Of a DNA stretch of 37,494 nucleotides, positions 9,801 through 25,443 are shown one piece after another. Position 1 is the stretch's first letter. Each line of letters starts with the position of its first letter. Under the pieces are notes generated by a model. It was given only the letters and a program-made list of their open reading frames with translations. It was not told the origin of the DNA and ran no database searches. Both the position numbers and the translations under genes were made by a program. This DNA comes from a virus: positions 1-37,494 of the IMG/VR virus record IMGVR_UViG_3300030103_000216, one strand, 5' to 3'.

Positions 9801-12695
9801 ACAAGTGCAGGTGCAGGTGCACAGAAGTTTACAGCTAGTGTAGATGGTGCATCAGACAGCGTGTACACACTTAATAATCGTGTAGATGACACTACGTTTG
9901 AACTAAATGCAGGTTCACAGATACCTAAACGGTCAATACCATTTGACCCTGACAGTAGTGTATGGATTGAGCAAGACGCTATACGTATTCCTGACCATTA
10001 TCTACGGACAGGTTTTAACGTTACATACAAAGAAGGTTCATCAGCTACAGGTGGACTTACTACCAACACTACATACTATATTATTAGGGTGTCACAGAAT
10101 TGGATTAAGTTAGCTGCATCAGAAGATGACGCACTGACAGGCACAGCAATCAGTCTTACATCTAAAGGTGTAGGGCAGGCATCATTTGATACTAACAATA
10201 TTATTGGTGAGATTGGCGGTCAGGGTACTGCTACACTGGACATTGACAAGACTACGATTGAAGGAACAAACACAAACTTTACATCCTTCTTTAAAACAGG
10301 TGATGACATATCATTGTACAAGCCTGAACTGTTTGACCAAAAAACAGTAAACAGTCTTGGTGGTACAACAGATCTAAACACATCAACTAATCACGGTTAT
10401 TCAACTGGTGACCTTGTTATATTTGAAGCAACATCAGCACCAACTGGTCTTACAAGTGGGTTCTTTTATTATGTAGGCGTTGTCGATGCTAACTCATTAA
10501 AGGTATATCCAACACTAGATGACGCTACCAACACTACAAACGGCATAACGTTTAGTGGCACTGGTAACGGCATGACTGTTAGAAAGATTACATCTATAGG
10601 TGACACAGTAGTACAAAGAGTACGTGCAGTGCTGTCGCCAAGTAAGATGGAAGTAGAACAAGCAGGCACAGAAACATTAGCAGATGTTAATTATTCTGTT
10701 GGTACATCACTTATCCTACGTGCAGATGGCTTTGCATTGCACAGACCATATGACGGTGGTGTAGAACTGATACCGTCTACTAATCCTGATAGTCAGATGA
10801 TTAGACAGACACGTAAGTATTTCCGTTATCAATCAGGTAAGGGTATACAAGTATCGTTTGCTGTAAACTTTAGCCCAACAACACAGATTGAGCGTATCGA
10901 ATATGCAACAGGTGGCAGTCAGGCAAGGGTATATACTAAGTTTGCACACAGACTAAGTGCAGGTCTTGAGATTACAATTAAGGATGTAAACCCTGTAAAC
11001 GGTGTAGATTACTTCAATGGTAAGTTTAGTGTTACTGCAATCTATGACGATTACAGCTTCCACATTACGCTACCAGTTAGCCCACCTAACACAGTCAGCA
11101 CAGGTGGCTTTGGTTTCTACCATGTAAACGCATGGCAAAACAGTGAACTACGTTGCGGATTGTTTGACGATCAGAACGGTATGTTCTTTGAATACGATGG
11201 GCAAAACCTGAAATGTTGCAGACGTAAATCTATCAAGCAGCTTGCAGGTACGTGCACCGTTACATTTGGTGCAGGTATTGTAACAGGTCTTAACACCAAG
11301 TTTACATCACAATGTAACGTCAACGATTATATTGTGTTGAAAGGTCAGTCATATCAGATTGCTAAGATTGACAGTGACACAGTTATGTACATTACCCCAT
11401 CATACAGGGGTCAAACTACAGATGGCGTTGTAGCTACAATAACAGAAACAATCAAAGTCAATCAGTCTGATTGGAACATAGACACAGCAGATGGATTTGG
11501 CCCAACAGGTTACGTATTGGATCTTAACAAAATCCAAATGGCCTACATTGATTACTCATGGTATGGTGCAGGTAAGATTAGATTTGGTTTTAAAGACCAA
11601 GAAGGTGACGTGCAATACGTACACGCTTTCATACACAACAATTTAGAAACAGAAGCGTATATGCGTTCAGGTAATATGCCTGCACGTTACGACATACAGA
11701 ACATTGGCACACCTACATACGTGCCAGCCCTAGCACATTGGGGTACATCAGTTATCATGGACGGTACGTTTGACGATGATAAGGCGTACATCTTTACAGC
11801 GTCATCAAACGATGTTGCCGTAACAGGTAGTGCTACAGTTACAGTATCAGCTAAGTCAGATTACACAGGGTACTATTACTCATTTGTACAAAACAGACTA
11901 CGTAGGATTGGTTACTGTCTTGAAAGTAATACAAGCACACAGTACAACCAGCTTACATCAGGTCAGGCAATCAGTGGTGCTAACTTGTCATCAGGTACAC
12001 GACTACGTAATCCACAAGATAGTCGTATCCAACCGTTTGCACCTTATCTACCTGACGTGTTTAGCTACCAAGGTTTTAACTTTAGCACTGGTGCTACACG
12101 AAATCTTATTGTAGTAGACAGACAGCCAACAGGCACAGCAGGTACAAATAGTAACTACACAGTTACATTGTCAGATGCATCAACACCTGTGGTTTATGAC
12201 ATACCGCTAATCTCAATTAGACTAGCACCGTCAGTAGACACTGGTACAATAGGTGCACTTGGTGAACGTGAGATTATCAACCGTATGCAGTTACTACTAA
12301 ACTCTGTAGGTATTCTTACAACACACACAATCGAAGTAGTGCTTAGACTAAACGGTGCTATCGACAACGCATCATGGGATGCTGTTGAAAACCCATCATT
12401 GTCACAGCTTATATTCCACGGTACAGGCGATACGATTGAAGGTGGTGTAAACCTATTTAAGTTTAGAGCAGCAGGCACAACAGGTTCATCAGGCAGAACA
12501 CAGGCATCAACAGAACAAACACTTGGCGAAGTGGCATCACTTGGTAACAGTATAATGGGCGGTGACAACACCTTCCCTGATGGCCCTGATATTCTAACAG
12601 TGGTAGCAAGATTGACTGAAGATCCATCTACAGTTACAGCAAGCAACCCATTGATTGTGAACTCACGTATATCATGGTCAGAAAGTCAGGCGTAA
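6825..12695 (+). CDS. Very large tail/adhesin-like structural protein with repeated FCCH-type beta modules and a cupredoxin-like domain
   Basis: 1,956 residues, beta-rich, with no signal peptide, starting 6 nt after the fibre gene. At least six copies of a module with the pattern HG(F/L/Y)-x-x-GD-x-V-x-Y ... GGL-x-x-x-x-x-YYV ... N-x-(I/L)-x-(L/F) occur. This module is commonly annotated in phage tail proteins as an E1 FCCH domain, and two copies also occur in the tail tubular protein at 31458. Residues about 726-830 form a distinct insert with the ligand pattern of a type 1 copper protein: H770, C819, H822 and M825 (HPF ... YYYCGVHSGM), with amicyanin-like C-x2-H-x2-M spacing. The N-terminal 150 residues are probably the virion-attachment part. 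A distal tail or host-binding structure is inferred from position after the fibre; the enzymatic or receptor role is unknown. Confidence 0.72.
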   Translation: MAKKIIHRYVFDAANRTVLINEIIAQKRLLTITNTTANEILYAFPDTVRGASSYNIDTTAKTTTITLDIDTTAMGVYANPTQTGYSGSGTDLQFTIAKNTPTKNYEITVTTTGTGYAVDETIIVAGSQLGGTSANDATVTITSVDGSGAVTGVSIAGKPLLDELQIFIEKDSTEMRPDKTYTDPVSKFRVSQPENLIDTDFEYGLQSTKWETLELIRNIPTFFSRNGDQDLDITEMTTVQDSNQIRVVTSDQHNLVQGNPIIVIGSRNNNANGGFVVTKIVDPTTFVFTAKANIATTGSIKDTYTQVFLASIYQGTEFKLENVNGITTDEGNPSKLTVSTEYPLGLNEGTSFFLVNSVGQKIVNYTAGASNVVHENFVNIGNSTQGNQPTGETGHVWTYGAIDTHNYIPKHAPSEGCITKWFVQGTGANNTITVNTAGGVETITFDDSPHGFTDGQYVVYLHGDGNGAMGGLTDTRPYWVRVIDANTIYLTLQGPTGTGRVNITNYGSFNGHSRSCFTTAFDPVQIYTGSSQEEVRFNSVIPFIANNPNQAFICFYSYVGINSTSYFVNNSDNLASYNQNSSQILFPRNVRVVNNETIMQFSRYPNSGALNMSRSSHGGAVVLMDVNPNANTIWFQNHGLSQGDVVRFGSSSSSVPSGMTRNDYYNVYPVNANRIKFSDYRANGQNNLTSQGATSATMDITGWSAIDGADFIDATQTITPPVATIDYSVSVQNNGSANKFYIDGIESPVLELTEGNTYRFDQSDGSNANHPFKFSETADGTHGGGSEYTTNVAYTGTAGTDGLLTITIASGAPTLYYYCGVHSGMGGQANTPVPTSTTLGHGLTDGDPVVYSNEGNTTIGGLTNAATYYVANASEFKTQLATTATGYTTPDITFRHSTGGSRTTGYIYSYAYVWRNSHGFVTGDRVQYTSNTPVQGLRNGAFYYIRRIDANRFYFYRTLAGAQSGSSWPDRILFALPYSGTGRVRKTTIVDLTSAGAGAQKFTASVDGASDSVYTLNNRVDDTTFELNAGSQIPKRSIPFDPDSSVWIEQDAIRIPDHYLRTGFNVTYKEGSSATGGLTTNTTYYIIRVSQNWIKLAASEDDALTGTAISLTSKGVGQASFDTNNIIGEIGGQGTATLDIDKTTIEGTNTNFTSFFKTGDDISLYKPELFDQKTVNSLGGTTDLNTSTNHGYSTGDLVIFEATSAPTGLTSGFFYYVGVVDANSLKVYPTLDDATNTTNGITFSGTGNGMTVRKITSIGDTVVQRVRAVLSPSKMEVEQAGTETLADVNYSVGTSLILRADGFALHRPYDGGVELIPSTNPDSQMIRQTRKYFRYQSGKGIQVSFAVNFSPTTQIERIEYATGGSQARVYTKFAHRLSAGLEITIKDVNPVNGVDYFNGKFSVTAIYDDYSFHITLPVSPPNTVSTGGFGFYHVNAWQNSELRCGLFDDQNGMFFEYDGQNLKCCRRKSIKQLAGTCTVTFGAGIVTGLNTKFTSQCNVNDYIVLKGQSYQIAKIDSDTVMYITPSYRGQTTDGVVATITETIKVNQSDWNIDTADGFGPTGYVLDLNKIQMAYIDYSWYGAGKIRFGFKDQEGDVQYVHAFIHNNLETEAYMRSGNMPARYDIQNIGTPTYVPALAHWGTSVIMDGTFDDDKAYIFTASSNDVAVTGSATVTVSAKSDYTGYYYSFVQNRLRRIGYCLESNTSTQYNQLTSGQAISGANLSSGTRLRNPQDSRIQPFAPYLPDVFSYQGFNFSTGATRNLIVVDRQPTGTAGTNSNYTVTLSDASTPVVYDIPLISIRLAPSVDTGTIGALGEREIINRMQLLLNSVGILTTHTIEVVLRLNGAIDNASWDAVENPSLSQLIFHGTGDTIEGGVNLFKFRAAGTTGSSGRTQASTEQTLGEVASLGNSIMGGDNTFPDGPDILTVVARLTEDPSTVTASNPLIVNSRISWSESQA

Positions 12696-16438: not shown

Positions 16439-17074
16439 CTAAAATGGCACATCGTCAGGGTCAACATCAGCAGTAAAGTTTGGTGGCATGGTATCTGAAC
16501 CATTGTTGCCATCACCCTTGTCTTGCGTGGACACGTTTTCCAACTCTTGTGATTTTAGTATCATGTTTCGTATACCTTCAGGCAGTGCGTTGAACGCATC
16601 AGCTTCACCTTTTTGGTATTCATCTACGCTGAAGATTACAGTGCTGTGGTATTGCTGATCTAATTCATCACCCTTTGGCAATGGCATTAGTGTAGCAATC
16701 CTTGGCCTACCGTTCTTACCTTCAACTACATTCATCATACAGGGTACGCCAGCTAGTTTTGATATATCAAAGCCTGACTTTTCCTGTTCAGTAAACGCAC
16801 GACCACGCCATGCAGATAGGTCAGCACCAAGTGTTGCCTTTTCATGCAGCGATAGTGTGTAGAATTTACTGATAATCATGGGTTCGCCATCATCTTTCTT
16901 TTCAGCAGGCACTTCCCATTGCAGCATACATTGACGCTTCCATTTGCCTTCACCCTGATATTCATTCCATTGCGTGCCAAGGTCTATGACCCTTACGCAA
17001 CGTGCTTTGTGTACGCCTACAGATACATCAGGGTAACGACCATCACCTGTGACGCTTGTTGCTATGATTGACAT
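16439..17074 (-). CDS. Single-stranded DNA-binding protein-like (SSB) with acidic DDVPF tip
   Basis: 211 residues. A beta-rich N-terminal two thirds is followed by a disordered Asn/Gly/Asp linker and a C-terminal tip ending DVDPDDVPF. That tip closely mimics the DDDIPF tail by which bacterial SSB recruits partner enzymes, and it is the main reason for the call. The body does not show the classic OB-fold SSB sequence, so it may be a phage family analogue. It is the first gene of the leftward operon, with AAGGTG 7 nt before its ATG and a promoter 40-68 nt upstream containing a perfect-armed operator. The next gene is the nuclease. Confidence 0.78.
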   Translation of the reverse strand: MSIIATSVTGDGRYPDVSVGVHKARCVRVIDLGTQWNEYQGEGKWKRQCMLQWEVPAEKKDDGEPMIISKFYTLSLHEKATLGADLSAWRGRAFTEQEKSGFDISKLAGVPCMMNVVEGKNGRPRIATLMPLPKGDELDQQYHSTVIFSVDEYQKGEADAFNALPEGIRNMILKSQELENVSTQDKGDGNNGSDTMPPNFTADVDPDDVPF

Positions 17075-17113: not shown

Positions 17114-17142
17114 ATATTAACAATAGTTAATCTATACGTCAA
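17114..17142 (-). promoter_or_regulatory. Leftward sigma70 promoter of the SSB-nuclease operon
   Basis: Leftward TTGACG (17142-17137), 17-nt spacer, TAATAT (17119-17114). The predicted start is near 17107, giving a leader of about 33 nt. The inverted repeat at 17116-17131 covers much of the spacer and the -10 box, so a bound repressor would exclude RNA polymerase. Confidence 0.75.
17116..17131. promoter_or_regulatory. Operator 1: ATTAAC-AATA-GTTAAT inverted repeat
   Basis: Perfect 6-bp arms with a 4-bp spacer, lying within the leftward SSB promoter and 98 bp before the Cro-like gene. It is one of four copies of ATTAAC-N4-GTTAAT in the window (17116, 17641, 22851, 23653), all next to promoters. 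The likely ligand is the 72-aa HTH protein encoded at 17214. Confidence 0.75.
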
Positions 17143-17150
17143 GCATTATG

Positions 17151-17179
17151 TTGACAAAAGTTAAGTTAATATGTAATAT
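17151..17179 (+). promoter_or_regulatory. Rightward sigma70 promoter of the Cro-like gene, with tandem half-sites
   Basis: TTGACA (17151-17156), exact 17-nt spacer, TAATAT (17174-17179). The spacer holds GTTAAGTTAAT at 17160-17170, two direct half-sites of the operator, suggesting autoregulation. Its -35 is only 8 bp from the -35 of the divergent leftward promoter, so the two polymerases probably compete. Confidence 0.75.
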
Positions 17180-17213
17180 CATACACATAACATACCATAT
17201 ATAGGCATAGGAA

Positions 17214-17432
17214 ATGGCTGACACATATGAATTAGCAAAGAAGCGTAAAGCTGAAGTCGTAGATAAATACGGTGGCAAAAACCTTGCACGTATGCTGGGT
17301 ATATCACACCCTGCCGTATCAAAATGGCAGGTCATACCACAACTGCGTGCCTATCAAATAGCAGAACTAGGTGACTATGATCTAGGATACCTGCGACCTG
17401 ATTTGCAGATTGCCCCATCACGTGTGGGGTAG
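17214..17432 (+). CDS. Cro-like helix-turn-helix repressor (72 aa)
   Basis: A compact HTH protein. Residues 23-40 (NLARMLGISHPAVSKW) fit the helix-turn-helix of Cro/YdaS-type phage regulators, followed by the typical IP-x-x-RAYQIAEL helix and a short C-terminal tail. It has no protease or multimerisation domain of the CI type. It is transcribed from a promoter carrying half-sites of ATTAAC-N4-GTTAAT and faces the SSB operon promoter carrying a full site, the arrangement of a phage control region. It is the only obvious transcription regulator in the window. AGGA is close to the ATG (spacing about 2), which may give weak translation. Confidence 0.85.
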   Translation: MADTYELAKKRKAEVVDKYGGKNLARMLGISHPAVSKWQVIPQLRAYQIAELGDYDLGYLRPDLQIAPSRVG

Positions 17433-17456
17433 CCCATAAATCATAGGGTAAAAATG

Positions 17457-17490
17457 ACACGTGGGGTGACGTGTGGTTTATTTATTCTTT
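17457..17490 (+). terminator. Possible terminator after the Cro-like gene
   Basis: ACACGT (17457-17462) and ACGTGT (17469-17474) form a 6-bp stem with a 6-nt loop, followed by GGTTTATTTATTCTTT. It lies 25 nt after the stop. The stem is short and the T-tract interrupted, so the call is weak. A second hairpin CCCCA...TGGGG (17413-17429) overlaps the end of the gene. Confidence 0.35.
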
Positions 17491-17558
17491 AGCTCAACCA
17501 TGCGTCACCTATAGCATTGCCATAGTATTGCTATAAATAACTAATGGCATTTGATGCC

Positions 17559-17594
17559 CTTCATCTTCACCTTCACCTTCAACTTCCCCTTCAT
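17559..17594. repeat. Six tandem CTTCAN hexamers (pyrimidine tract)
   Basis: The units are CTTCAT, CTTCAC, CTTCAC, CTTCAA, CTTCCC and CTTCAT. The strand is almost pure pyrimidine over 36 bp and ends 12 bp before a -35 box. Homopyrimidine tracts can melt or form triplexes and are found at some origins; here the role is unknown. Confidence 0.8.
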
Positions 17595-17606
17595 CCCAAG
17601 ATAGTG

Positions 17607-17635
17607 TTGACACACTTAACCTAGTTATGTATATT
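17607..17635 (+). promoter_or_regulatory. Rightward sigma70 promoter of the replication operon
   Basis: TTGACA (17607-17612), exact 17-nt spacer, TATATT (17630-17635). The spacer contains TTAAC-CTA-GTTA (17616-17627), a variant operator with a 3-nt spacer, and the full operator at 17641 covers the predicted start site near 17642. Confidence 0.75.
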
Positions 17636-17640
17636 GAGTT

Positions 17641-17656
17641 ATTAACTAATGTTAAG
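17641..17656. promoter_or_regulatory. Operator 2: ATTAAC-TAAT-GTTAAG
   Basis: One mismatch in the last base of the right arm. It lies 5 bp after the -10 box of the replication promoter, over the predicted transcription start. With the variant site inside the promoter spacer it gives two sites for one promoter. Confidence 0.7.
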
Positions 17657-17671
17657 TGATGGTAGAAACAC

Positions 17672-18064
17672 ATGAGAAAAAGTAAACAGGATGAGCAATC
17701 CCCTGCGTTCCAGTTTTACGCACAGGATTGGATAAGTGACCCTGACCGTATGGTTTTGTCACTTGAGGAACAGGGTGCATATGTACTGCTGTATTGTTAT
17801 TGCTGGCGTGCTTACAAAATACCTAATGATGTAGAGGTGTTGGCAAAGATGTGCAGTACCAGTGAACAAGAAATGGAAATCATAATGAAACACATTTCAC
17901 ATTTGTTCACAGAAAAAGATGGGCACTTGATCTGCATACAAGCAGAAGAAGAACGTAAAGAACAAGAAAAGAACCGCAGACGCAGACAGGAAGCAGGCCG
18001 TAAGGGTGCTGCTGCACGCTGGGGTGATAAGGATGGGGATGATGGTAGTGTTCAATCCGAATAG
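17672..18064 (+). CDS. DUF1376-like replication-associated protein (130 aa)
   Basis: N-terminal SPAFQFYAQDWISDP followed by LSLEEQGAYVLLYCYCW is characteristic of the DUF1376/YdaU family, often found next to phage replication initiators and thought to have a winged-helix-like fold. The C-terminal third is a highly charged helix (EEERKEQEKNRRRRQEAGRK) with an AARWGDKDGDDG tail that could bind DNA. It is the first gene of the replication operon and its end overlaps the primase gene by 23 nt. The precise role, perhaps origin recognition or helicase loading, is not proven. Confidence 0.75.
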   Translation: MRKSKQDEQSPAFQFYAQDWISDPDRMVLSLEEQGAYVLLYCYCWRAYKIPNDVEVLAKMCSTSEQEMEIIMKHISHLFTEKDGHLICIQAEEERKEQEKNRRRRQEAGRKGAAARWGDKDGDDGSVQSE

Positions 18065-18857
18065 TCATTACGCTGTATTCTTACAGGCGTTTGGCAATAC
18101 GCATAGTTTCCAAACATTTGATGACAAGGGAAAGAACAAGTCACTGGTCAAACAGTTTCATGGCAACATTGAAAGTTTTATTGATGAACTGTCATGGCTA
18201 AACAAACGTGGTGCAGGTGTATATTTTACAGTCAATCAGACTGACCTGAAAGGTAGGACAACAGCCAATGTTAATCGTGTGCGGTCTGTCTTTATAGATT
18301 TAGACGGTGCACCACTGCCTGATAAGTTTGACCTTGAACCACATTTTATCTTGGAAACATCACCAAAGAAATACCACGTGTATTGGCTGGTGTATGAAAT
18401 GCCATTGCCTACGTTTACATTGTATCAACAAGCGTTGGCTAAAAAATTTAATAGTGATGACAAAGTAAAAGACCTGCCACGTGTGATGCGTGTTGCTGGT
18501 TTTTATCACAACAAACGTGAACCTTATCCAATAAAGATAAGGCACATGACAGATCCAACACCCTATGACATGGATGAAATACGTGACCAGCTTGGCTTGC
18601 AAAGGCCACAGCCACGTAGGTTTGTTGCACGTGCACCAGTAACTTTCCAAGGTGCATACGCAGGTAGCAAACCATACGGTGCAAGTGGTGGTGACAGACA
18701 TGAACAATTAGTACGCATGATTATCAGCATACGTAAGCGTGGTGAAAGTATTGAGTACGCAACAGAAGAAGCAATCAAGTTTGCTGATGCGTGTCAACCA
18801 CCTGAAAGCAGAAGCGAAGCTGTGTTCCAAGTGCGTGACATTTACAACAGGTATTGA
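18042..18857 (+). CDS. RepB-type DNA primase (archaeo-eukaryotic primase-like), 271 aa
   Basis: Residues from the start MVVFNPNSHYAVF: FIDLDG at 84-89 supplies the acidic pair D86/D88, SPKKYHVYW at 107-115 supplies the conserved His112, and DLPRVMRVAGF at 144-154 follows. This is the motif order of RepB/RepB' primases of plasmids and phages (PF16793-like). It would lay primers for host DNA polymerase. The start is chosen at 18042 because AGGA lies 8 nt upstream; ATGs at 18033 and 18039 are also in frame. It overlaps the DUF1376-like gene and is followed immediately by the helicase. The C-terminal segment (residues about 215-271) is helical and may be a regulatory or helicase-contact domain. 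Confidence 0.82.
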   Translation: MVVFNPNSHYAVFLQAFGNTHSFQTFDDKGKNKSLVKQFHGNIESFIDELSWLNKRGAGVYFTVNQTDLKGRTTANVNRVRSVFIDLDGAPLPDKFDLEPHFILETSPKKYHVYWLVYEMPLPTFTLYQQALAKKFNSDDKVKDLPRVMRVAGFYHNKREPYPIKIRHMTDPTPYDMDEIRDQLGLQRPQPRRFVARAPVTFQGAYAGSKPYGASGGDRHEQLVRMIISIRKRGESIEYATEEAIKFADACQPPESRSEAVFQVRDIYNRY

Positions 18858-18859
18858 TT

Positions 18860-20344
18860 ATGAAACTACGTGATTACCAGCTTATTGCTGTAGAAAAAAT
18901 TAGACAAAGTTTTCGTAACGGAAACAAAAGAGTGCTGCTTGTTGCACCAACAGGTAGCGGTAAGACTGTGATTGCAAGCCACATGATTAAAATGGCACAG
19001 CTAAAGCACAAAGGCAGCTTGTTTGTGGCACATAGGCGTGAACTGGTCATGCAATGCAGCAATAAACTAGCAGATTTTGAAGTAAACCACGGCATTATGA
19101 TGGCTGGTAAATCTGCAAACAGCATGGCAACCACACAAGTAGCAAGCATACAAACGTTTCATGCACGCAAAGATGGCGATTACTTTATCAAACCAAAGGG
19201 TGACCTGATTATGCTGGATGAAGCACACAGGTCTGCATCTAAAACTTTCAAAGATTTGATAGACGATTACCCTGACGCATATGTCATTGGCTTGACTGCT
19301 ACACCATGCAGGGCTGATGGCAAAGGATTGGGTGCTGTCTATGATGATCTTGTAGAATGTGCATCAATCAAAGAACTGACTGACCAAGGCTACCTTGTAC
19401 CAAACAATATTGTAGCACCAACTATGCCTGACTTAGAAGGCTTGAAGATTGTAGCTGGTGATTATGAAAAGCGTGGCCTGTCAAAGCGTATGAACCAACC
19501 TAAACTTGTGGGTGATTTGGTTACACATTGGAAACGACATGGACAACACAGACCAACCGTTGTGTTTGCTGTTTCGATTGCACATAGCAAGTACATTGCC
19601 AACATCTTTAATCAAAACGGCATACCTGCTGGTCACATTGATGGTGATATGCCTGAAATAGAACGTGAACAGGTGTTGAGTGACTTGCACACTGGCAAAA
19701 TAAAAGTGTTGTCAAACTGTCAAGTGCTCACTGAAGGCTGGGATGAACCAAAGGTATCATGTGTGATACTGGCACGACCAACAAAATCATATGCCATGTA
19801 TTTGCAAATGGTAGGCCGTAGCTTACGACCATTCACAGGCAAACAGGACACGCTAATCATTGACCATGCTGGTTGTGTGTATGAGCATGGCTTTCCTGAA
19901 GATGTGCCTGAATGGGAACTAACAGAAAACAGAATACAATCACCACGACAAAAGAAAAGCGAACCGATTGAGAAACAACCTTGGACGTGTTTGCAATGTG
20001 ACCATGTTTATAAGCCTGTGCGTGGTGACATATCGTGCCCTGTCTGTGGCTTTACACCAACAAAGAAAGAAAAGCAGGTGCTAATCAAACAAGGCAGGCT
20101 TGTTGAGTTAGAAAAAGAAAAGATTACACCACAGCACAAGTTAGATTTTTTGGCACAGCTTATCTATCACGCTAGGCAAAGGGGCTACAAAGAAGGGTGG
20201 GCAAGCTGGACATTCAAAGAAAAGTTTGGGCATTTTCCGCATACAAAGCGTGTGATGCCAAAGCCTGTGGGTGATGAGGTCAATGGCTTTCTTCATCATC
20301 TGCGTATTAAAAAAGCCAAACGGAAGGTAAACGCATATGAGTGA
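18860..20344 (+). CDS. Superfamily 2 DEAH-box helicase with C-terminal zinc ribbon
   Basis: 494 residues from the ATG MKLRDYQ; a TTG 6 nt upstream overlaps the primase stop and is less likely. Motifs: Q-like LRDYQ at 3-7, Walker A APTGSGKT at 29-36, DEAH at 120-123, GLTATP near 145, and motif VI QMVGRSLRP near 320. A CLQC ... CPVCG pair near 375-395 forms a zinc ribbon, as in many phage replicative or repair SF2 helicases. It resembles the RAD25/UvsW-like phage helicases more than a hexameric DnaB. Probable role is origin opening, fork restart or recombination-dependent replication alongside the primase. The next gene starts at the helicase stop region with an 8-nt overlap. Confidence 0.92.
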   Translation: MKLRDYQLIAVEKIRQSFRNGNKRVLLVAPTGSGKTVIASHMIKMAQLKHKGSLFVAHRRELVMQCSNKLADFEVNHGIMMAGKSANSMATTQVASIQTFHARKDGDYFIKPKGDLIMLDEAHRSASKTFKDLIDDYPDAYVIGLTATPCRADGKGLGAVYDDLVECASIKELTDQGYLVPNNIVAPTMPDLEGLKIVAGDYEKRGLSKRMNQPKLVGDLVTHWKRHGQHRPTVVFAVSIAHSKYIANIFNQNGIPAGHIDGDMPEIEREQVLSDLHTGKIKVLSNCQVLTEGWDEPKVSCVILARPTKSYAMYLQMVGRSLRPFTGKQDTLIIDHAGCVYEHGFPEDVPEWELTENRIQSPRQKKSEPIEKQPWTCLQCDHVYKPVRGDISCPVCGFTPTKKEKQVLIKQGRLVELEKEKITPQHKLDFLAQLIYHARQRGYKEGWASWTFKEKFGHFPHTKRVMPKPVGDEVNGFLHHLRIKKAKRKVNAYE

Positions 20345-20687
20345 AGAACAGTTAGAACAGCGTATGCATAGTCTGCGTGAAGTGGGCATGAAACACGCTG
20401 AAGCAAAGGAAAAGCTAACCAAACTAGATTACAGCAGGCAGATCTTGCTTGCTACATTGATGAAAGAAAAGCTGGTTGATGATCCTGTTGCAAACAAAAC
20501 ATCAGCAGCACAAGAACGTGAAGCACGTGCTGACAAACGTTACATTGACCACATTGATGCATTGGCACAGGCTACAGGTGAAGAAGCAAAGTGGGCATGG
20601 GAAAAAAAGATTGTAGAAATAAACTTTGAACGTTGGAAAACTGATATGATAAATCAAACAATAGAAAAGAAAAAGTATGGTGCGTAA
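20337..20687 (+). CDS. Hypothetical helical protein of the replication operon (116 aa)
   Basis: Almost entirely predicted alpha-helix, with heptad-like charged segments (QLEQRMHSLREVGMKHAEA; then AQEREARADKRYIDHI and KKIVEINFERWKTDMI). No catalytic motif, membrane span or Cys is visible. It overlaps the helicase end by 8 nt and the Ref-like gene by 11 nt, so it is almost certainly translated with them. Similar small proteins sit beside helicases in marine phages; the role is unknown. Confidence 0.7.
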   Translation: MSEEQLEQRMHSLREVGMKHAEAKEKLTKLDYSRQILLATLMKEKLVDDPVANKTSAAQEREARADKRYIDHIDALAQATGEEAKWAWEKKIVEINFERWKTDMINQTIEKKKYGA

Positions 20688-21033
20688 CAAGACAACAAAA
20701 GAAAAGAAACACATGGATAGCGTGGCAAGGCTGGGATGCATAGCTTGTCGCCTGCTTGGTCATTACGATAGCCCTGCTGAACTGCATCACATCAAGCATC
20801 AAACAGGCATGGGCAGGCGTTCATCACACTTTGAAGTTATACCGTTGTGCTACACGCATCATCGTGGTTCGTTTGGCTATCACAACAGCCCTGCTGAATT
20901 TGAAGGTAACTACGGCACACAAAAAGAACTGCTGGCAATGACGCTGAAGTGGTTAGCCGTTGATGGATGTAGCTGTGGTTGCACAGAAAAGAAGGGGAAA
21001 CAGGCTGACCCATTTCCCCCCCTCTATGAGTGA
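20677..21033 (+). CDS. Ref-like HNH nuclease / recombination protein (118 aa)
   Basis: Zinc and HNH features in order: C21-x2-C24, H37-H38 (AELHHIKHQTG), C58-x2-H61-H62 (IPLCYTHHRGSFGYH) and H69, then FEGNYGTQKELL. This is the pattern of the RecA-dependent nuclease Ref of phage P1 and its phage relatives (DUF968/Ref-like). It could resolve recombination intermediates or cut DNA at RecA-bound loops. The C-terminus has an extra CSCGCTEKK tail. An alternative start is the ATG at 20713 (MDSVARLGC). It is the last large gene of the replication operon. Confidence 0.85.
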   Translation: MVRNKTTKEKKHMDSVARLGCIACRLLGHYDSPAELHHIKHQTGMGRRSSHFEVIPLCYTHHRGSFGYHNSPAEFEGNYGTQKELLAMTLKWLAVDGCSCGCTEKKGKQADPFPPLYE

Positions 21034-21045
21034 TAAGGTAGAAGT

Positions 21046-21133
21046 TTGGTGGTGACTAGCGAAGGTTACATCACTAATGAAGCCATCTGGTCAGATACAA
21101 CAACAGTCCTGAACGAGCCTAGCCACCGACCAA
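21046..21133 (+). ncRNA. Candidate structured RNA with a long closing stem
   Basis: TTGGT-GGTG-A-CTAG (21046-21059) pairs with CTAG-C-CACC-G-ACCAA (21119-21133): 13 base pairs with one mismatch and one bulged G, enclosing about 59 nt that can fold further. There is no T-tract on either side, so it is not a standard terminator. It lies in the gap between convergent operons (21034-21159). No known RNA family is recognised. Confidence 0.35.
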
Positions 21134-21141
21134 CACCATAA
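21046..21141 (+). CDS. Possible 31-aa protein at the end of the replication operon
   Basis: Begins at TTG 21046 (or GTG 21049), with AAGG 7-10 nt upstream, 12 nt after the Ref-like gene stop, and runs to TAA. The product is protein-like in composition (VTSEGYITNEAIWSDTTTVL) but short, and an open frame of this length is not unlikely by chance. The same DNA forms a long inverted repeat, so a structured RNA is the competing interpretation. Confidence 0.3.
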   Translation: MVVTSEGYITNEAIWSDTTTVLNEPSHRPTP

Positions 21142-21159
21142 CTACCACTCACAAACTTG

Positions 21160-21330
21160 TCAAATCTTATCGCTTTTGTAGCAATCCCATGCCCACCATG
21201 CAAACCACACGGCAACAAAAAAGACTGCAAGACTGCCGACATATGGCGTAGGTATCATCACCTGTAGCTGCCATATGCCAAACATTAACAACAAAAGACT
21301 TACAGACCATTTGAATATAAGCATTTTCAT
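21160..21330 (-). CDS. Small membrane protein with two spans (56 aa)
   Basis: Found by reading the - strand after the 67-aa gene: starts MKMLIFKWSVSLLLLMFGIW, then a short polar loop and a second aromatic-rich span (SLAVFFVAVWFAWWAWDC) and a YKSDKI end. The ATG overlaps the upstream stop as ATGA, typical of a real coupled gene. Last gene of the leftward six-gene operon. Tryptophan-rich small membrane proteins of phages may act on the host envelope or in superinfection control, but no function can be assigned. Confidence 0.65.
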   Translation of the reverse strand: MKMLIFKWSVSLLLLMFGIWQLQVMIPTPYVGSLAVFFVAVWFAWWAWDCYKSDKI

Positions 21331-21530
21331 TTTGTTGTGTTCCTATAGTTTTTCCAATCCTGTACGGACTGTTCTAACGCTTTGTTGATAGCTTCATAAA
21401 CGTGCTGGTCATTGTTCTTCATGTAAATTAGCAAGTCTGCACGCTGTGCAGGGGATAAATCACGCTGTTCATTAGCTATACTTTCTATCCACCTGCGATC
21501 AATGACGATCAATTTTTCATTGTGCGTCAT
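21327..21530 (-). CDS. Hypothetical small helical protein (67 aa)
   Basis: Start taken at the ATG giving MTHNEKLIVIDRRWIES, with AAGGG 10 nt upstream; a TTG two codons earlier is also possible. Contains an LSPAQRADLLIYMKN helix and an amphipathic C-terminal helix. No recognised motif. It overlaps the preceding gene by 14 nt and the following membrane protein by 4 nt. Confidence 0.65.
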   Translation of the reverse strand: MTHNEKLIVIDRRWIESIANEQRDLSPAQRADLLIYMKNNDQHVYEAINKALEQSVQDWKNYRNTTK

Positions 21531-22017
21531 GCTCAATTATCCCTTCTTCCTCATCTTTCTTTGCATTAAATGCACCAGCCATACGGTGCACTGCTTCAAC
21601 GCTAAAACCGCCAACGTTCCATTCTTTTATGTGGTCAAGTGGCAGACCGTCAGTGCCGTTGTACGCATAACCGTTCTTCCAGTTATACAGCGTTGCAATC
21701 GTGCCATCTTCAAACTCAAACGACCATTCAACATCAATCTTATTTTCTAAGTCTGTTGGTTGCCATTTGTAATGTGGTTCACCAAACGCTTTAACTATCT
21801 CATCATAAGGCATTTCCAATTTGCCTTGCAGGTGTGTGCCTGCTGTCTTTGTTGTTCGTTTCATGTCCTTTCCTTCCAAGTAATGTTTATCTTGTAAGCC
21901 AAAGGCCAGCATTGATGCCAGCCTTTCTGCTTTTGTTGGTAACCAAGTGACAAGCTGGCTTGCTAAATTATCAAGCTGTTCATCACTCATGTTGGCAAAA
22001 TCCCACTGCTTACGCAT
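21517..22017 (-). CDS. Conserved hypothetical protein with a beta-rich FEDGTIATLYNWK domain (166 aa)
   Basis: The N-terminal helix (DEQLDNLASQLVTWLP) is followed, from about residue 65, by a domain with GTHLQGKLEMPYDEIVKAFGEP, then WSFEFEDGTIATLYNWKNG and a WNVGGFSVEAVHRM ending. This domain recurs in phage and bacterial hypothetical proteins (recalled, no search done) with unknown function. Start chosen at ATG 22017, giving an 8-nt overlap with the upstream gene; ATGs at 22029 and 22056 would overlap more. The C-terminus is acidic (KKDEEEGIIEHDAQ). Confidence 0.7.
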   Translation of the reverse strand: MRKQWDFANMSDEQLDNLASQLVTWLPTKAERLASMLAFGLQDKHYLEGKDMKRTTKTAGTHLQGKLEMPYDEIVKAFGEPHYKWQPTDLENKIDVEWSFEFEDGTIATLYNWKNGYAYNGTDGLPLDHIKEWNVGGFSVEAVHRMAGAFNAKKDEEEGIIEHDAQ

Positions 22018-22351
22018 ACCTGTCACCATATGCCCTGTGCCGTGGGTTGCCCACATGACTAGGCTTGATAATCGTGTGACTTATCACACCATCAGCCCAT
22101 TCATGTTCTTTGTCTATGTACTGCTGCACTATCGTAGGCACAGCAGGCAGCATTGACGGATTGCTAGACCATCCAAACCCATCACAGTCACGACCTTCAG
22201 CATAGATGCAAATAAACCCTGCTTCAGCTTTTGCCTTGATGCTGTTCACAAAGCGTTGTTTGCGTGCAAGTGGGTCATCAGACTGCGTGTGTTTGACGTG
22301 GTTTTTCATCAAGCGTCTAACTTGGTGTTGCCATGTTGGTTTATTATCCAT
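22010..22351 (-). CDS. Hypothetical protein (113 aa)
   Basis: Start set at MDNKPTWQHQVRRL because that ATG overlaps the upstream stop by one base (TAATG), a pattern repeated in this operon; a longer frame upstream lies inside the preceding membrane-protein gene. Basic N-terminal helix, then an ICIYAEGRDCDGFGWSSN segment containing a Cys and several Gly, and a C-terminal half with a TIVQQYIDKEHEW helix. No family recognised. Confidence 0.65.
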   Translation of the reverse strand: MDNKPTWQHQVRRLMKNHVKHTQSDDPLARKQRFVNSIKAKAEAGFICIYAEGRDCDGFGWSSNPSMLPAVPTIVQQYIDKEHEWADGVISHTIIKPSHVGNPRHRAYGDRYA

Positions 22352-22515
22352 TATCTGCCCCCCATCATCATAGGCCACCAAAAAATAACAGTGCCACCAA
22401 AACCAAGAACCAAGGGCACGAACAGTCCGTTGACGTGTTGAAACCCTGTGACTGCAAGACCCAATGACGCAAGCTGCATCATTAGGCCAAGCACCATCGC
22501 AAAAACGGTAGCCAT
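22351..22515 (-). CDS. Small hydrophobic membrane protein (54 aa)
   Basis: Reads MATVFAMVLGLMMQLASLGL, then a short polar QHVNG loop and a second span (LFVPLVLGFGGTVIFWWP) ending MMMGGR. The ATG overlaps the upstream stop by one base and its stop overlaps the downstream ATG by one base (TAATG on both sides), strong context support for a real gene despite its size. A helical hairpin in the inner membrane is predicted. Role unknown. Confidence 0.7.
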   Translation of the reverse strand: MATVFAMVLGLMMQLASLGLAVTGFQHVNGLFVPLVLGFGGTVIFWWPMMMGGR

Positions 22516-22829
22516 TACGCTACCGCCTTCAAGTTATTAGCCAAGATAAGAAATGCCTTGCTAGGGTCACTGTTTACGTTGCCAACCTGATTTAATATGT
22601 TTTGGTCAATCTGTGGCACTTTCTTTACATCTTCCACAGCCCATTCAGCACGCAAATAAGCGTTAATGTGCTTTGATGTTGTCACGCTGTGATATTCGTC
22701 AGTTTTAAAAACAGTATCACCGCACTTGCCAGCGACTACAGTTGTATAAGAGAAAAACAATTCAATAGGCTGACCATCTACTGACCAGCTAATGATTGTT
22801 TGATTGCTTCCGTATTGTTGTACTTTCAT
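22515..22829 (-). CDS. Conserved phage hypothetical, SYxTxVA...TTSKHIN type (104 aa)
   Basis: Start at MKVQQYGSNQTIISW, because GGAAGG sits 7 nt upstream; an in-frame ATG five codons earlier is less suitable. It contains FFSYTTVVAGKCGDTVF and YHSVTTSKHINAYL, a combination seen in small phage proteins I recall as a DUF of unknown function. First gene of the leftward small-gene operon, directly downstream of a promoter with an operator at its start site, so it is probably made early. Confidence 0.7.
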   Translation of the reverse strand: MKVQQYGSNQTIISWSVDGQPIELFFSYTTVVAGKCGDTVFKTDEYHSVTTSKHINAYLRAEWAVEDVKKVPQIDQNILNQVGNVNSDPSKAFLILANNLKAVA

Positions 22830-22850
22830 CGTTCTACCTTCCATTTATTG

Positions 22851-22866
22851 ATTAACGTAGGTTAAT
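22851..22866. promoter_or_regulatory. Operator 3: ATTAAC-GTAG-GTTAAT
   Basis: Perfect arms. It overlaps the -10 end and the predicted start of the leftward small-gene promoter. The adjoining GTTAATATTAAC (22861-22872) is a perfect 12-bp palindrome made of the same half-sites, so two dimers could bind side by side. Confidence 0.75.
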
Positions 22867-22892
22867 ATTAACACAATATAATTGACTGTCAA
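22865..22892 (-). promoter_or_regulatory. Leftward promoter of the six-gene small-protein operon
   Basis: Leftward TTGACA (22892-22887), 16-nt spacer, TAATAT (22870-22865). The -35 box shares base 22887 with the -35 of the rightward terminase promoter, so both cannot be occupied together. Confidence 0.7.
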
Positions 22893-22909
22893 CCACTTTA
22901 GGTTATAAT
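22882..22909 (+). promoter_or_regulatory. Rightward promoter of the small terminase gene
   Basis: TTGACT (22882-22887), 16-nt spacer, consensus TATAAT (22904-22909). The next gene's ATG begins at 22916, so the predicted +1 is at or beside the start codon. An AACC-N6-GGTT repeat (22891-22904) in the spacer resembles degenerate operator half-sites. Confidence 0.72.
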
Positions 22910-22915
22910 GAGCAT

Positions 22916-23326
22916 ATGATTACTAAAACCCTTACAGACAAACAAAAAGCGTTTGTTGAAAACTTTAGTCAGACTGGCAATGCCACACAGTCAGCGATCA
23001 AGGCTGGCTACAGTAAAGCCACAGCAGAACAACAAGGCTACAACCTCAAGCAGCAACTATCCCATGAGATAGACACAGAAACAAAAAAGCTACTTGGGTC
23101 AGTCGTACCGTTGGCAATCGAAAAGCTAACCAAGCTGGTCAATGATGACAAGATAAGCCCTGCGGTCAGGCTAGGTGCAATCAATAGCATCTTAGACCGT
23201 ACAGGCTATCAGACTGTTCACAAGGTTGAGGACGTAACCAAGCAGCGAACAGATGAAGAACTGCAAACAGAACTGCAACACCTATTAAATGGGCTGGGGT
23301 CTAGTGATAAAGACACACAGCATTAA
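22916..23326 (+). CDS. Terminase small subunit (136 aa)
   Basis: Starts MITKTLTDKQKAFVENFSQTGN, then TQSAIKAGYSKATAEQQGYNL, the typical N-terminal HTH (terminase_2-like, PF03592) that recognises packaging DNA. A central helix (IEKLTKLVNDDKISPAVRLGAINSILDRTGY) forms the oligomerisation part. The C-terminus is acidic and disordered. No Shine-Dalgarno sequence fits, and the -10 box is only 6 nt before the ATG, so a leaderless message is likely. It is followed by 390 bp of non-coding, GC-rich DNA before the next packaging genes. Confidence 0.9.
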   Translation: MITKTLTDKQKAFVENFSQTGNATQSAIKAGYSKATAEQQGYNLKQQLSHEIDTETKKLLGSVVPLAIEKLTKLVNDDKISPAVRLGAINSILDRTGYQTVHKVEDVTKQRTDEELQTELQHLLNGLGSSDKDTQH

Positions 23327-23652
23327 CCCTGTATTGCTACGCTCTATATATAGGGGAACACACAGCACCCCCAATCAGTAGCCCAATCACCCCACGCAAA
23401 AACGTTTTCTCCGCACACACACACGCACCACAGCAAAGCAGGGGCACACGGCCTGCGGTCTTGTCAAAAGGATAGGGGCAGGGGTGGTGCATTACACATA
23501 GCCGCAGCAAATGTGCAGCCCACGCAACGCAGGCGACACGCACAGAAATAATTTGCCCCCACGACAGCAGAAATCGACCCCCCACCCCCCCAAAACGCTT
23601 TGGCCTGTATAATACAATGGGTCTTTCCACACAGCGGAGGGGATATTTTAGT

Positions 23653-23668
23653 ATTAACATAGGTTAAT
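23653..23668. promoter_or_regulatory. Operator 4: ATTAAC-ATAG-GTTAAT
   Basis: Perfect arms, 14 bp upstream of the -35 of the nuclease/terminase promoter. A degenerate copy, ATAGAC-TAAG-GTTAAT (23681-23696), overlaps that -35 and spacer. Confidence 0.75.
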
Positions 23669-23681
23669 AAAGTAAAACAAA

Positions 23682-23710
23682 TAGACTAAGGTTAATTTAT
23701 AGTATATATT
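23682..23710 (+). promoter_or_regulatory. Rightward promoter of the packaging nuclease-large terminase genes
   Basis: TAGACT (23682-23687), 17-nt spacer, TATATT (23705-23710). The -35 is poor, so activation or weak use is possible. The ATG of the nuclease gene is at 23717, again 6 nt after the -10 box, as at the small terminase gene. Confidence 0.6.
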
Positions 23711-23716
23711 GCTAAT

Positions 23717-24031
23717 ATGGGCGACAAAGCATGGAAACAGCGTGAAAGAAAGGTTGCTGCATTTTTTGGGGGGCAGCGAACACCCCTATCAGGTGGCAAC
23801 GGCAAGATAACTAGGGCAGATGTTATACATCCTGACCTGTTTATAGAGTGTAAGTTACGCAAAAAGCACAGTGTTGTAACATTGTGGGATGAAACAAAAG
23901 AATTAGCTGACAAAGAAGGTAAGACACCTATCATTGCCTTATGTGAAGCAAATCGCAAAGGGCACTGGATTATGTGCCACAGTGATGATCTACAGAAATT
24001 GTTACAAAATGTTACGAAGGATGTGACGTGA
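23717..24031 (+). CDS. PD-(D/E)XK nuclease of the packaging module (Holliday-junction-resolvase-like), 104 aa
   Basis: Reads KQRERKVAAFFGGQRTPLSGG, then VIHPDLFIECKLRKKH with D40 and E44-x-K46, the core of a small PD-(D/E)XK nuclease. A TPIIALCEANRKGHW strand follows. Proteins of this type often precede the large terminase in phages and may trim branched DNA before packaging. There is no Shine-Dalgarno; a -10 box lies 6 nt before ATG, so a leaderless start is likely. The stop overlaps the GTG start of the large terminase (GTGA). Confidence 0.78.
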   Translation: MGDKAWKQRERKVAAFFGGQRTPLSGGNGKITRADVIHPDLFIECKLRKKHSVVTLWDETKELADKEGKTPIIALCEANRKGHWIMCHSDDLQKLLQNVTKDVT

Positions 24032-25443
24032 GTGCGTTAGAACAAGCAGTAGAGATTGCAAGAGAGTTAGAGCGTAGGCGTGCTACTAACCAGTTAAAAC
24101 ATTACAAGCCATACCCATACCAAGTTAAGTTTCATAACACCGTAGCACAACAAAGGTTGCTTATGGCAGGTAACCGTGTAGGTAAATCTTGGTCAGGGGC
24201 TATGGAACTAGCCATACATTTGACAGGTTTGTATCCTGATTGGTGGGAAGGCAAACGTTTTACTAGACCTATAAGGGCATGGGCTGGTGGTGCGTCTAAC
24301 GAAACAACACGTGATATTTGTCAAAAAGAATTGTTGGGGCAACCTGACGATCCTAGTGCTAGGGGCACAGGGTCAATACCGTTAAATCTTATAGGTGACA
24401 CAGTGCGAAAAGCAGGTGTGCCTAATGCATTGAATAGCTGTGTGGTCAGACACACAACAGGTGGATATAGCCGACTTGCTTTCAAAGCCTACGAAATGGG
24501 TAAAGAAAAGTGGATGGGCGAAAGTTTGGACGTTATATGGCTAGATGAAGAACCGCCAGCACAGATTTACACACAATCGCTAACACGTACTGCTGACAGG
24601 GGTGGTATTGTGTATATGACGTTTACACCTGAAAACGGTATGACGGAAACTGTAGCACAATACATCAATGACATACGTGATGGGCAGGCATTAGTACAAG
24701 CTACATGGGATGATGCCCCACATATGACAAAAAAAGTTAGAGATCAGATACTAGCAGCGTTACCACCACATGAACGTAAGATGCGTGAACAAGGCATACC
24801 ACAGTTAGGTAGTGGCCTTGTGTTTCCTATGGCAGAAGCAGACATGATTTGTGACCCTATAGAGATACCTAGTCATTGGCCTAGGATATGTGGTCTTGAT
24901 TTTGGATGGGATCACCCAACAGCAGCAGCATGGATTGCATGGGATAGGGATACAGACTGTATTTACTTGTATGACACGTATTCTATGCGTCAAGAAGCTG
25001 TGCCTATTCATGCAAGTGCTATAAAGGCACGTGGCAACTACATACCTGTAATATGGCCTATGGATGGTAGGCAAGCTGACAAAGGGTCAGGTAAATCACT
25101 AACAGAACAATACAGGTCTGAAGGTGTAAACATGACACGTGAGCATTTTACAAACCCACCACAACAAGGACAAAAAGAAAATACAGGTGGTATTAGTGTA
25201 GAAGCTGGGATAATGGATATGTATACAAGGTTTCAGACTAATAGATTGAAAATTTTTAATAATCAAAGTAAAGTGTTAGAAGAATTACGAATGTATCATA
25301 GAAAAGACGGTAAGATCGTAGCACAACATGACGATATTATTAGTGCTTTTCGTTACGCAGTAATGAGCGTTCGTAAAGCTAGGGTAAAAAATTATGAGCC
25401 AATGCAATACTCTAGCGACAATGAGTTTAGTGTTTTTGCATAG
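24028..25443 (+). CDS. terL: Terminase large subunit
   Basis: 471 residues, with both enzyme domains. ATPase: Walker A GNRVGKS at 48-54, Walker B DVIWLDEE near 168-175, and a TFTPENG coupling segment near 198-204. Nuclease: D291 in GLDFGWDHP, a second acidic site in WPMDGRQ near 353, and the HDDIISAFRYA motif near 447. It drives ATP-dependent DNA packaging into the prohead through the portal at 26448 and cuts the concatemer. GTG start, overlapped by the upstream nuclease stop. Intact and full length for the family. Confidence 0.96.
   Translation: MSALEQAVEIARELERRRATNQLKHYKPYPYQVKFHNTVAQQRLLMAGNRVGKSWSGAMELAIHLTGLYPDWWEGKRFTRPIRAWAGGASNETTRDICQKELLGQPDDPSARGTGSIPLNLIGDTVRKAGVPNALNSCVVRHTTGGYSRLAFKAYEMGKEKWMGESLDVIWLDEEPPAQIYTQSLTRTADRGGIVYMTFTPENGMTETVAQYINDIRDGQALVQATWDDAPHMTKKVRDQILAALPPHERKMREQGIPQLGSGLVFPMAEADMICDPIEIPSHWPRICGLDFGWDHPTAAAWIAWDRDTDCIYLYDTYSMRQEAVPIHASAIKARGNYIPVIWPMDGRQADKGSGKSLTEQYRSEGVNMTREHFTNPPQQGQKENTGGISVEAGIMDMYTRFQTNRLKIFNNQSKVLEELRMYHRKDGKIVAQHDDIISAFRYAVMSVRKARVKNYEPMQYSSDNEFSVFA

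Follow-up and report, generated by a model that had tools for sequence, protein, structure and literature searches.

Inverted repeats in the genome of a Baldr-related phage are probably operators of its own P22-type Cro protein

Introduction

In phage P22, Cro (Pfam family PF14549) is associated with an operator region, the right operator OR, in which inverted repeats (5-bp half-sites, N4 spacing) overlap divergent promoters; the operator of the P22 CI-cro region has the form TTAAG-N4-CTTAA. Here we describe a related arrangement in IMG/VR virus record IMGVR_UViG_3300030103_000216, a 37.5-kb sequence that was analysed over its whole length of 37,494 nucleotides ("the window"), where repeats of the form TTAAC-N4-GTTAA accompany the gene for a 72-residue Cro-like protein of the same family. 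P22 is temperate and its C2 (CI-type) repressor shares the operators with Cro, whereas no partner repressor was found for the window phage, which has its sites also at replication, small-gene, and packaging promoters. When compared to the lambda/P22 switch as a whole, the window circuit resembles the lytic half (cro plus operators), with neither a CI partner nor a tyrosine integrase detected and with the sites spread over the promoters of the genome.

Many copies of one repressor site across a genome are also found in cluster A mycobacteriophages (L5, D29 relatives), which carry stoperators. These are described in PMC9283540 as asymmetric, bound by the immunity repressor, and also able to stop elongation; in contrast, the window phage has few sites, which are symmetric and found at promoters only. 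TTAA half-sites in intergenic phage DNA are shared with the sites of CtrA, a regulator of alphaproteobacterial phages that binds TTAA-N7-TTAA there (PMC9437464); these differ in their spacing and in being read by a host protein.

The nearest isolate, as judged by the terminase, is Pelagibacter phage EXVC032P Baldr (terL 77% identical), which shares the gene order and has a 67%-identical Cro (annotated as hypothetical). Baldr has two full operators and only these, and no operator sites are annotated for it. No report of these operators was found in the open-licence literature, and the searchable papers say little about how transcription is controlled in these marine podovirus-like phages, among which is an isolate that infects Pelagibacter. 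The end stretch of the IMG/VR record repeats its first bases with few mismatches, which fits a circular or redundant genome. The window has 41% G+C, compared to roughly 33% in the relatives, so that no host is assigned to this phage in particular.

Position and sequence of the sites

We consider it very probable that an autoregulated P22-type Cro encoded by the phage itself has its operators here, and that it would repress the promoters of the ssb, replication, small-gene, and packaging genes in addition to that of cro. The window contains four copies of TTAAC-N4-GTTAA, compared to 0.14 expected and to a maximum of two in 300 shuffles. A first-pass annotation made from the sequence alone had listed them as three copies of a 16-bp motif with perfect arms (17116, 22851, 23653) and one with a single mismatch (17641), and they are present as stated there. 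When up to two mismatches are allowed, the 16-bp motif gives eight matches (3.4 expected), a number reached by 1 of 100 shuffles.

A position weight matrix was trained on relatives only and then scanned over the window. Its top six sites are, in ranked order, 23654, 17642, 17117, 22852, 17151, and 23682. All six are non-coding, and non-coding sequence amounts to just 4.6% of the coding span. Each of the ranks 1-6 scores above the best shuffle of equal rank, and a coding match appears only at rank 7 (10677). The annotation had seen no copies in the structural genes. This holds for the six top sites; a one-mismatch match at 10676 is within a tail gene. Another one-mismatch match (14036) is near the lysozyme gene; a lysozyme operator at this position was rejected, as an operator is found there in 0 of 21 distinct relatives.

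Operator 1, ATTAAC-AATA-GTTAAT (17116..17131), is on the -10 box of the leftward ssb-operon promoter (-35 at 17142-17137, -10 at 17119-17114) and is kept in relatives. It is followed by a composite operator on the plus strand, TTGAC-AAAA-GTTAA (17151..17164), the left arm of which is the -35 box of the cro promoter (-10 TAATAT, 17174-17179). The copy with one mismatch, ATTAAC-TAAT-GTTAAG (17641..17656), is placed just 3' of the -10 box (17630-17635) of the replication-operon promoter. ATTAAC-GTAG-GTTAAT (22851..22866) is on the -10 box of the leftward small-gene promoter and 50 bp upstream of terS, a position at which it is conserved in relatives; the evidence that terS itself might be controlled by this site is weaker. 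ATTAAC-ATAG-GTTAAT (23653..23668) is upstream of the packaging-nuclease/terL promoter and is followed by a second plus-strand composite, TAGAC-TAAG-GTTAA (23682..23695), whose left arm is the -35-like box of the packaging-nuclease promoter (-10 TATATT, 23705-23710) and of which related forms are found in relatives. In both composites, it is the -35 hexamer itself that serves as left arm.

The link to promoters drawn in the annotation is retained, but it is more apt to speak of four intergenic regions than of its five promoter settings: those of ssb/cro, of the replication operon, of the small genes and terS, and of the packaging nuclease. Among the degenerate copies that it had listed, 17160 proved to be the right arm of the composite at 17151-17164, and 23681 corresponds to the other composite. 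Two were rejected: 17616 is not among the listed matches, and 22861/22867 scores near background (-0.16).

Conservation in related loci

A search with the Cro protein provided 80 IMG/VR loci which, together with Baldr, make a set of 81. These loci are akin, so that the counts given below are not independent events; the fairer number is that of the composite clusters, 53 at up to 84% identity. Full TTAAC-N4-GTTAA sites number 95, distributed over 52 of the 81 loci, compared to 4.2 expected from shuffles and to 0-10 matches for control palindromes. The composite form TTGAC-N4-GTTAA has 132 copies (2.7 expected), and 73 of the 81 loci contain it. Spacing is strict: full sites with N4 give 190 strand-counts and those with other spacings 0-12, and for the composite the spacings other than N4 give 0-9. 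Among 16 complete or near-complete genomes, each has 1-3 exact sites.

The annotation had made its proposal depend on conservation at the promoters of relatives, and the sites are indeed found at the same promoters in the 80 relatives and Baldr, at nearly all gene switches and in no structural gene: they precede ssb, cro, terS, and the gene for the packaging nuclease, and in part of the phages the replication operon as well. In the ssb/cro region, many relatives have three operators about 22 bp apart (two helical turns), and the leftward and rightward -35 boxes are incorporated in two of the three. The arms are constant and are combined with 43 different N4 centres, which is the pattern expected from selection for a dimeric repressor. 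In 28 of the 53 composite clusters the best -10 hexamer is at a distance of 16-17 bp from the -35 box, which supports TTGAC as a genuine -35 box and the promoters as real.

A separate set was obtained with terL as query. It comprises 235 kb upstream of terL, with 108 full sites, and 586 kb downstream, with none. Of the 59 loci with enough sequence, 50 have a site in the 600 bp that precede terL, and 12 different N4 sequences are found at the centre of these sites. These sites, their positions, and their conservation can be read directly from the sequences, as can the agreement with the recognition rule of the Cro family described below.

As a separate observation, one clade has an operator match in coding sequence, at the 3' end of an HNH gene (L022:10992, L027:12288, L037:7432, L044:10104), with TTGACA 8 bp before the match. 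An internal promoter is one possibility, a chance effect of conserved codons another.

The Cro protein and its recognition helix

The 72-residue protein scores 49.1 bits against P22_Cro (PF14549), above the curated cut-off of 30.2, and its sole significant PDB match is P22 Cro (1RZS, E 5e-4). For the relation between recognition helix and operator, CI-cro intergenic regions were taken from 21 phages with P22-type Cros, nearly all of which have a repressor gene beside cro. The P22 Cro query matched the P22 record at 100%, and the record sequences were used in the later steps. The best palindrome of each region was found blind to the Cro sequence, and the 17 regions with a clear gap-4 palindrome were kept. 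At helix position 6, K or R is paired with the base C in all four cases and any other residue with G in all 13; at position 3, residue A is paired with the base A in all 11 cases and residue S with G in all six. Perfect splits of this kind have a chance of 1/2380 and 1/12376, respectively, before allowing for phage relatedness and for the rule having been read from the same data. Sequence rules of this kind for Cro go back to Hall et al. 2005, as cited in PMC4997575 and PMC4488713.

For the window helix HPAVSK, the rule predicts AAC-N4-GTT, with which the observed operator agrees; a palindromic operator with N4 spacing thus goes with the recognition helix of the window Cro as it does in the P22_Cro family. 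Similarly, ST101-KPC2phi6.3, AH07, Valp1, and phiES15 have K or R at helix position 6 and half-sites that end in AAC, but the outer bases differ in most of them (GTAAC, TAAAC) and a repressor gene is found beside cro. The annotation had named the 72-residue protein as the ligand, and this is the most likely assignment, considering the P22_Cro match, the helix rule, the conservation of the sites, and a spacing that excludes CtrA (see below).

The recognition helix SHPAVSKW of the window Cro is common to nearly all relatives. One phage type (L238, L291, L292) has TPGAVSKW instead. It is devoid of TTAAC-N4-GTTAA and has TTTAC-N4-GTAAA or TTTAC-N4-GTATA at its cro and terS positions. L293, a relative of these phages with SHPAVSKW, has TTAAC arms at those positions. 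The joint occurrence of TPGAVSKW and TTTAC is a single case, suggestive of co-variation between helix and operator, with which it fits. A divergent clade (L296 and L236, L300, and, judged by its sites, L239) shows N5 spacing at both cro and terS (L296:4488 and L236:2189, which are the same contig, L300:7968, and L239:161) and has no exact N4 TTAAC/GTTAA site. In the Cros of L296 and L300, VIPPF is replaced by VIPLF just past the recognition helix, which itself is unchanged. N5 spacing together with an unchanged helix suggests altered dimer geometry rather than altered base recognition in this clade. Taken together, the TPGAVSKW/TTTAC case and the N5 clade make co-evolution of operator and protein likely, although not proven.

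Proposed regulation and alternative explanations

According to the regulation that we propose, host RNA polymerase would start the ssb operon, cro, and the replication, small-gene, and packaging genes at sigma70-like promoters. A Cro dimer would place one recognition helix on each TTAAC half-site, across the 4-bp spacer. As Cro rises, it would cover the -35 box, the -10 box, or the start region of each promoter, shutting off its own gene and the others. We infer this switch-off of early genes from the overlap of the sites with -35 and -10 boxes; Cro binding, dimerisation, repression, and timing are, likewise, predictions from sequence.

Several points weigh against this proposal. Occlusion of the promoter is not evident for the sites 50-110 bp upstream of terS, nor for the more distant full site of the packaging nuclease. 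The AlphaFold model of Cro has low confidence (predicted local distance difference test, pLDDT, 58), so that the assignment of an all-alpha helix-turn-helix (HTH) fold rests on sequence families. The recognition rule was counted on the phages from which it came, several of them related, with four weak regions excluded. Furthermore, helix and operator track each other imperfectly, as the N5-spaced clade keeps SHPAVSKW where the helix is seen (L296, L300).

We think it unlikely that Cro represses some promoters but is an activator or dual regulator of others, such as that of the packaging nuclease. At the nuclease gene, the centre of the full site is about 56 bp 5' of the expected transcript start, and the site is 28-31 bp upstream of the composite that covers the -35 box, a position from which some regulators contact polymerase. 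However, the sites at ssb, cro, the replication operon, and the small genes overlap the core promoter or the start region, the terS-side site is at a variable distance from terS (about 54 to 112 bp), and for P22 Cro the annotated role is to switch early genes off.

The annotation had also considered a carrier state, and it is rather improbable that Cro acts as immunity repressor in a non-integrated dormant or carrier state. A single repressor acting on every lytic promoter detected might, in principle, keep the genome silent. No tyrosine integrase (PF00589) was detected in 17 records (the window and 16 related ones; serine integrases were not searched separately), which is in line with the annotation's view of a phage without integrase, and no close relative of this Cro was found in 84,980 prokaryote genomes. 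However, the same absence would be expected just as well of an ordinary virulent phage, and the suggestion of a carrier state received no support. In addition, no CI-type or second HTH repressor, partition, or protelomerase gene was noticed among the proteins scanned (some small genes were left unscanned), and small P22-type Cros are without a CI-type cleavable domain. Unlike in a lambdoid CI/Cro bistable switch, the divergent neighbour of cro is an SSB-like/exonuclease operon rather than a CI-type repressor gene. A virulent phage is the simplest reading.

It is very improbable that a host regulator such as CtrA binds the sites and that the phage thereby reads the host cell cycle. The half-site does contain TTAA, the closest isolate infects an alphaproteobacterium, and control of such phages by CtrA is documented (PMC9437464). 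In the relatives, however, TTAA-N7-TTAA is not enriched, its 109 matches being similar to those of other spacings and thus at background, by which CtrA is excluded as ligand. The one raised spacing is N6, with 240 matches, among which 95 have the C...G form, which is TTAAC-N4-GTTAA itself, the form that agrees with the Cro recognition rule.

A role of the sites in replication or packaging (iterons, terminase recognition site) instead of transcription is hardly credible, since some are beside terS/terL and near replication genes but others are at ssb and cro, with one or two per promoter rather than arrays and with embedded -35 boxes that have a -10 box at the right distance.

The reading as operators of a lone Cro can be extended to the whole phage group, which is possible but doubtful when all its parts are taken jointly: in a large marine group, an autoregulated Cro without CI would, as master regulator, control the early, the replication, and the packaging promoters, Cro titration may tie late-gene release to copy number, and the operator would co-evolve with its protein (TTAAC to TTTAC, N4 to N5). 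The parts are of known kinds; what is new is one Cro over the promoters of the genome without the lysogenic half. If true, the classical switch would have a lytic half that is able to act alone as a genome-wide controller. The six-site map, the named regulator, and the recognition rule make this programme directly testable in Baldr, which is already isolated, and the families in which the half-site or the spacing is altered offer a natural series in which to study protein-DNA co-evolution.

Genes and minor elements beside the operators

The leftward operon at operator 1 is headed by an SSB-like protein (16439..17074, minus strand) with an acidic DDVPF tail, which is assigned to a PHROG of unknown function. 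The gene for the Cro-like repressor is at 17214..17432 (plus strand), and the replication operon is headed by a DUF1376/primosomal-protein-like gene (17672..18064, plus strand). The leftward small-gene operon is headed by phrog_5643, of unknown function (22515..22844, minus strand). It is followed on the plus strand by the terminase small subunit gene terS (Terminase_2; 22916..23326), by a gene for a RusA/Holliday-junction-resolvase-like nuclease (23717..24031) immediately 5' of terL, and by the terminase large subunit gene terL itself (24028..25443).

A strongly conserved element, CTTTAGGTTATAAT (22890-22916), ends about 6 nt 5' of the terS ATG in most relatives. Its position suggests that the terS transcript is leaderless, with a type of promoter that is often without a clear -35 box. 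In the stretch 23705-23717, the -10 box TATATT of the packaging nuclease ends 6 nt 5' of the ATG, and this transcript may be leaderless, too. Just 5' of the nuclease operator (23615-23650), relatives have a conserved hairpin-like stretch, CCGCACAGCGG, followed by T-rich sequence, which is perhaps a terminator that insulates the packaging operon. Finally, distant relatives of the phage primase were encountered in bacterial genome contigs (L279-L290), several of which are labelled Chlamydiae and one Marinobacter.

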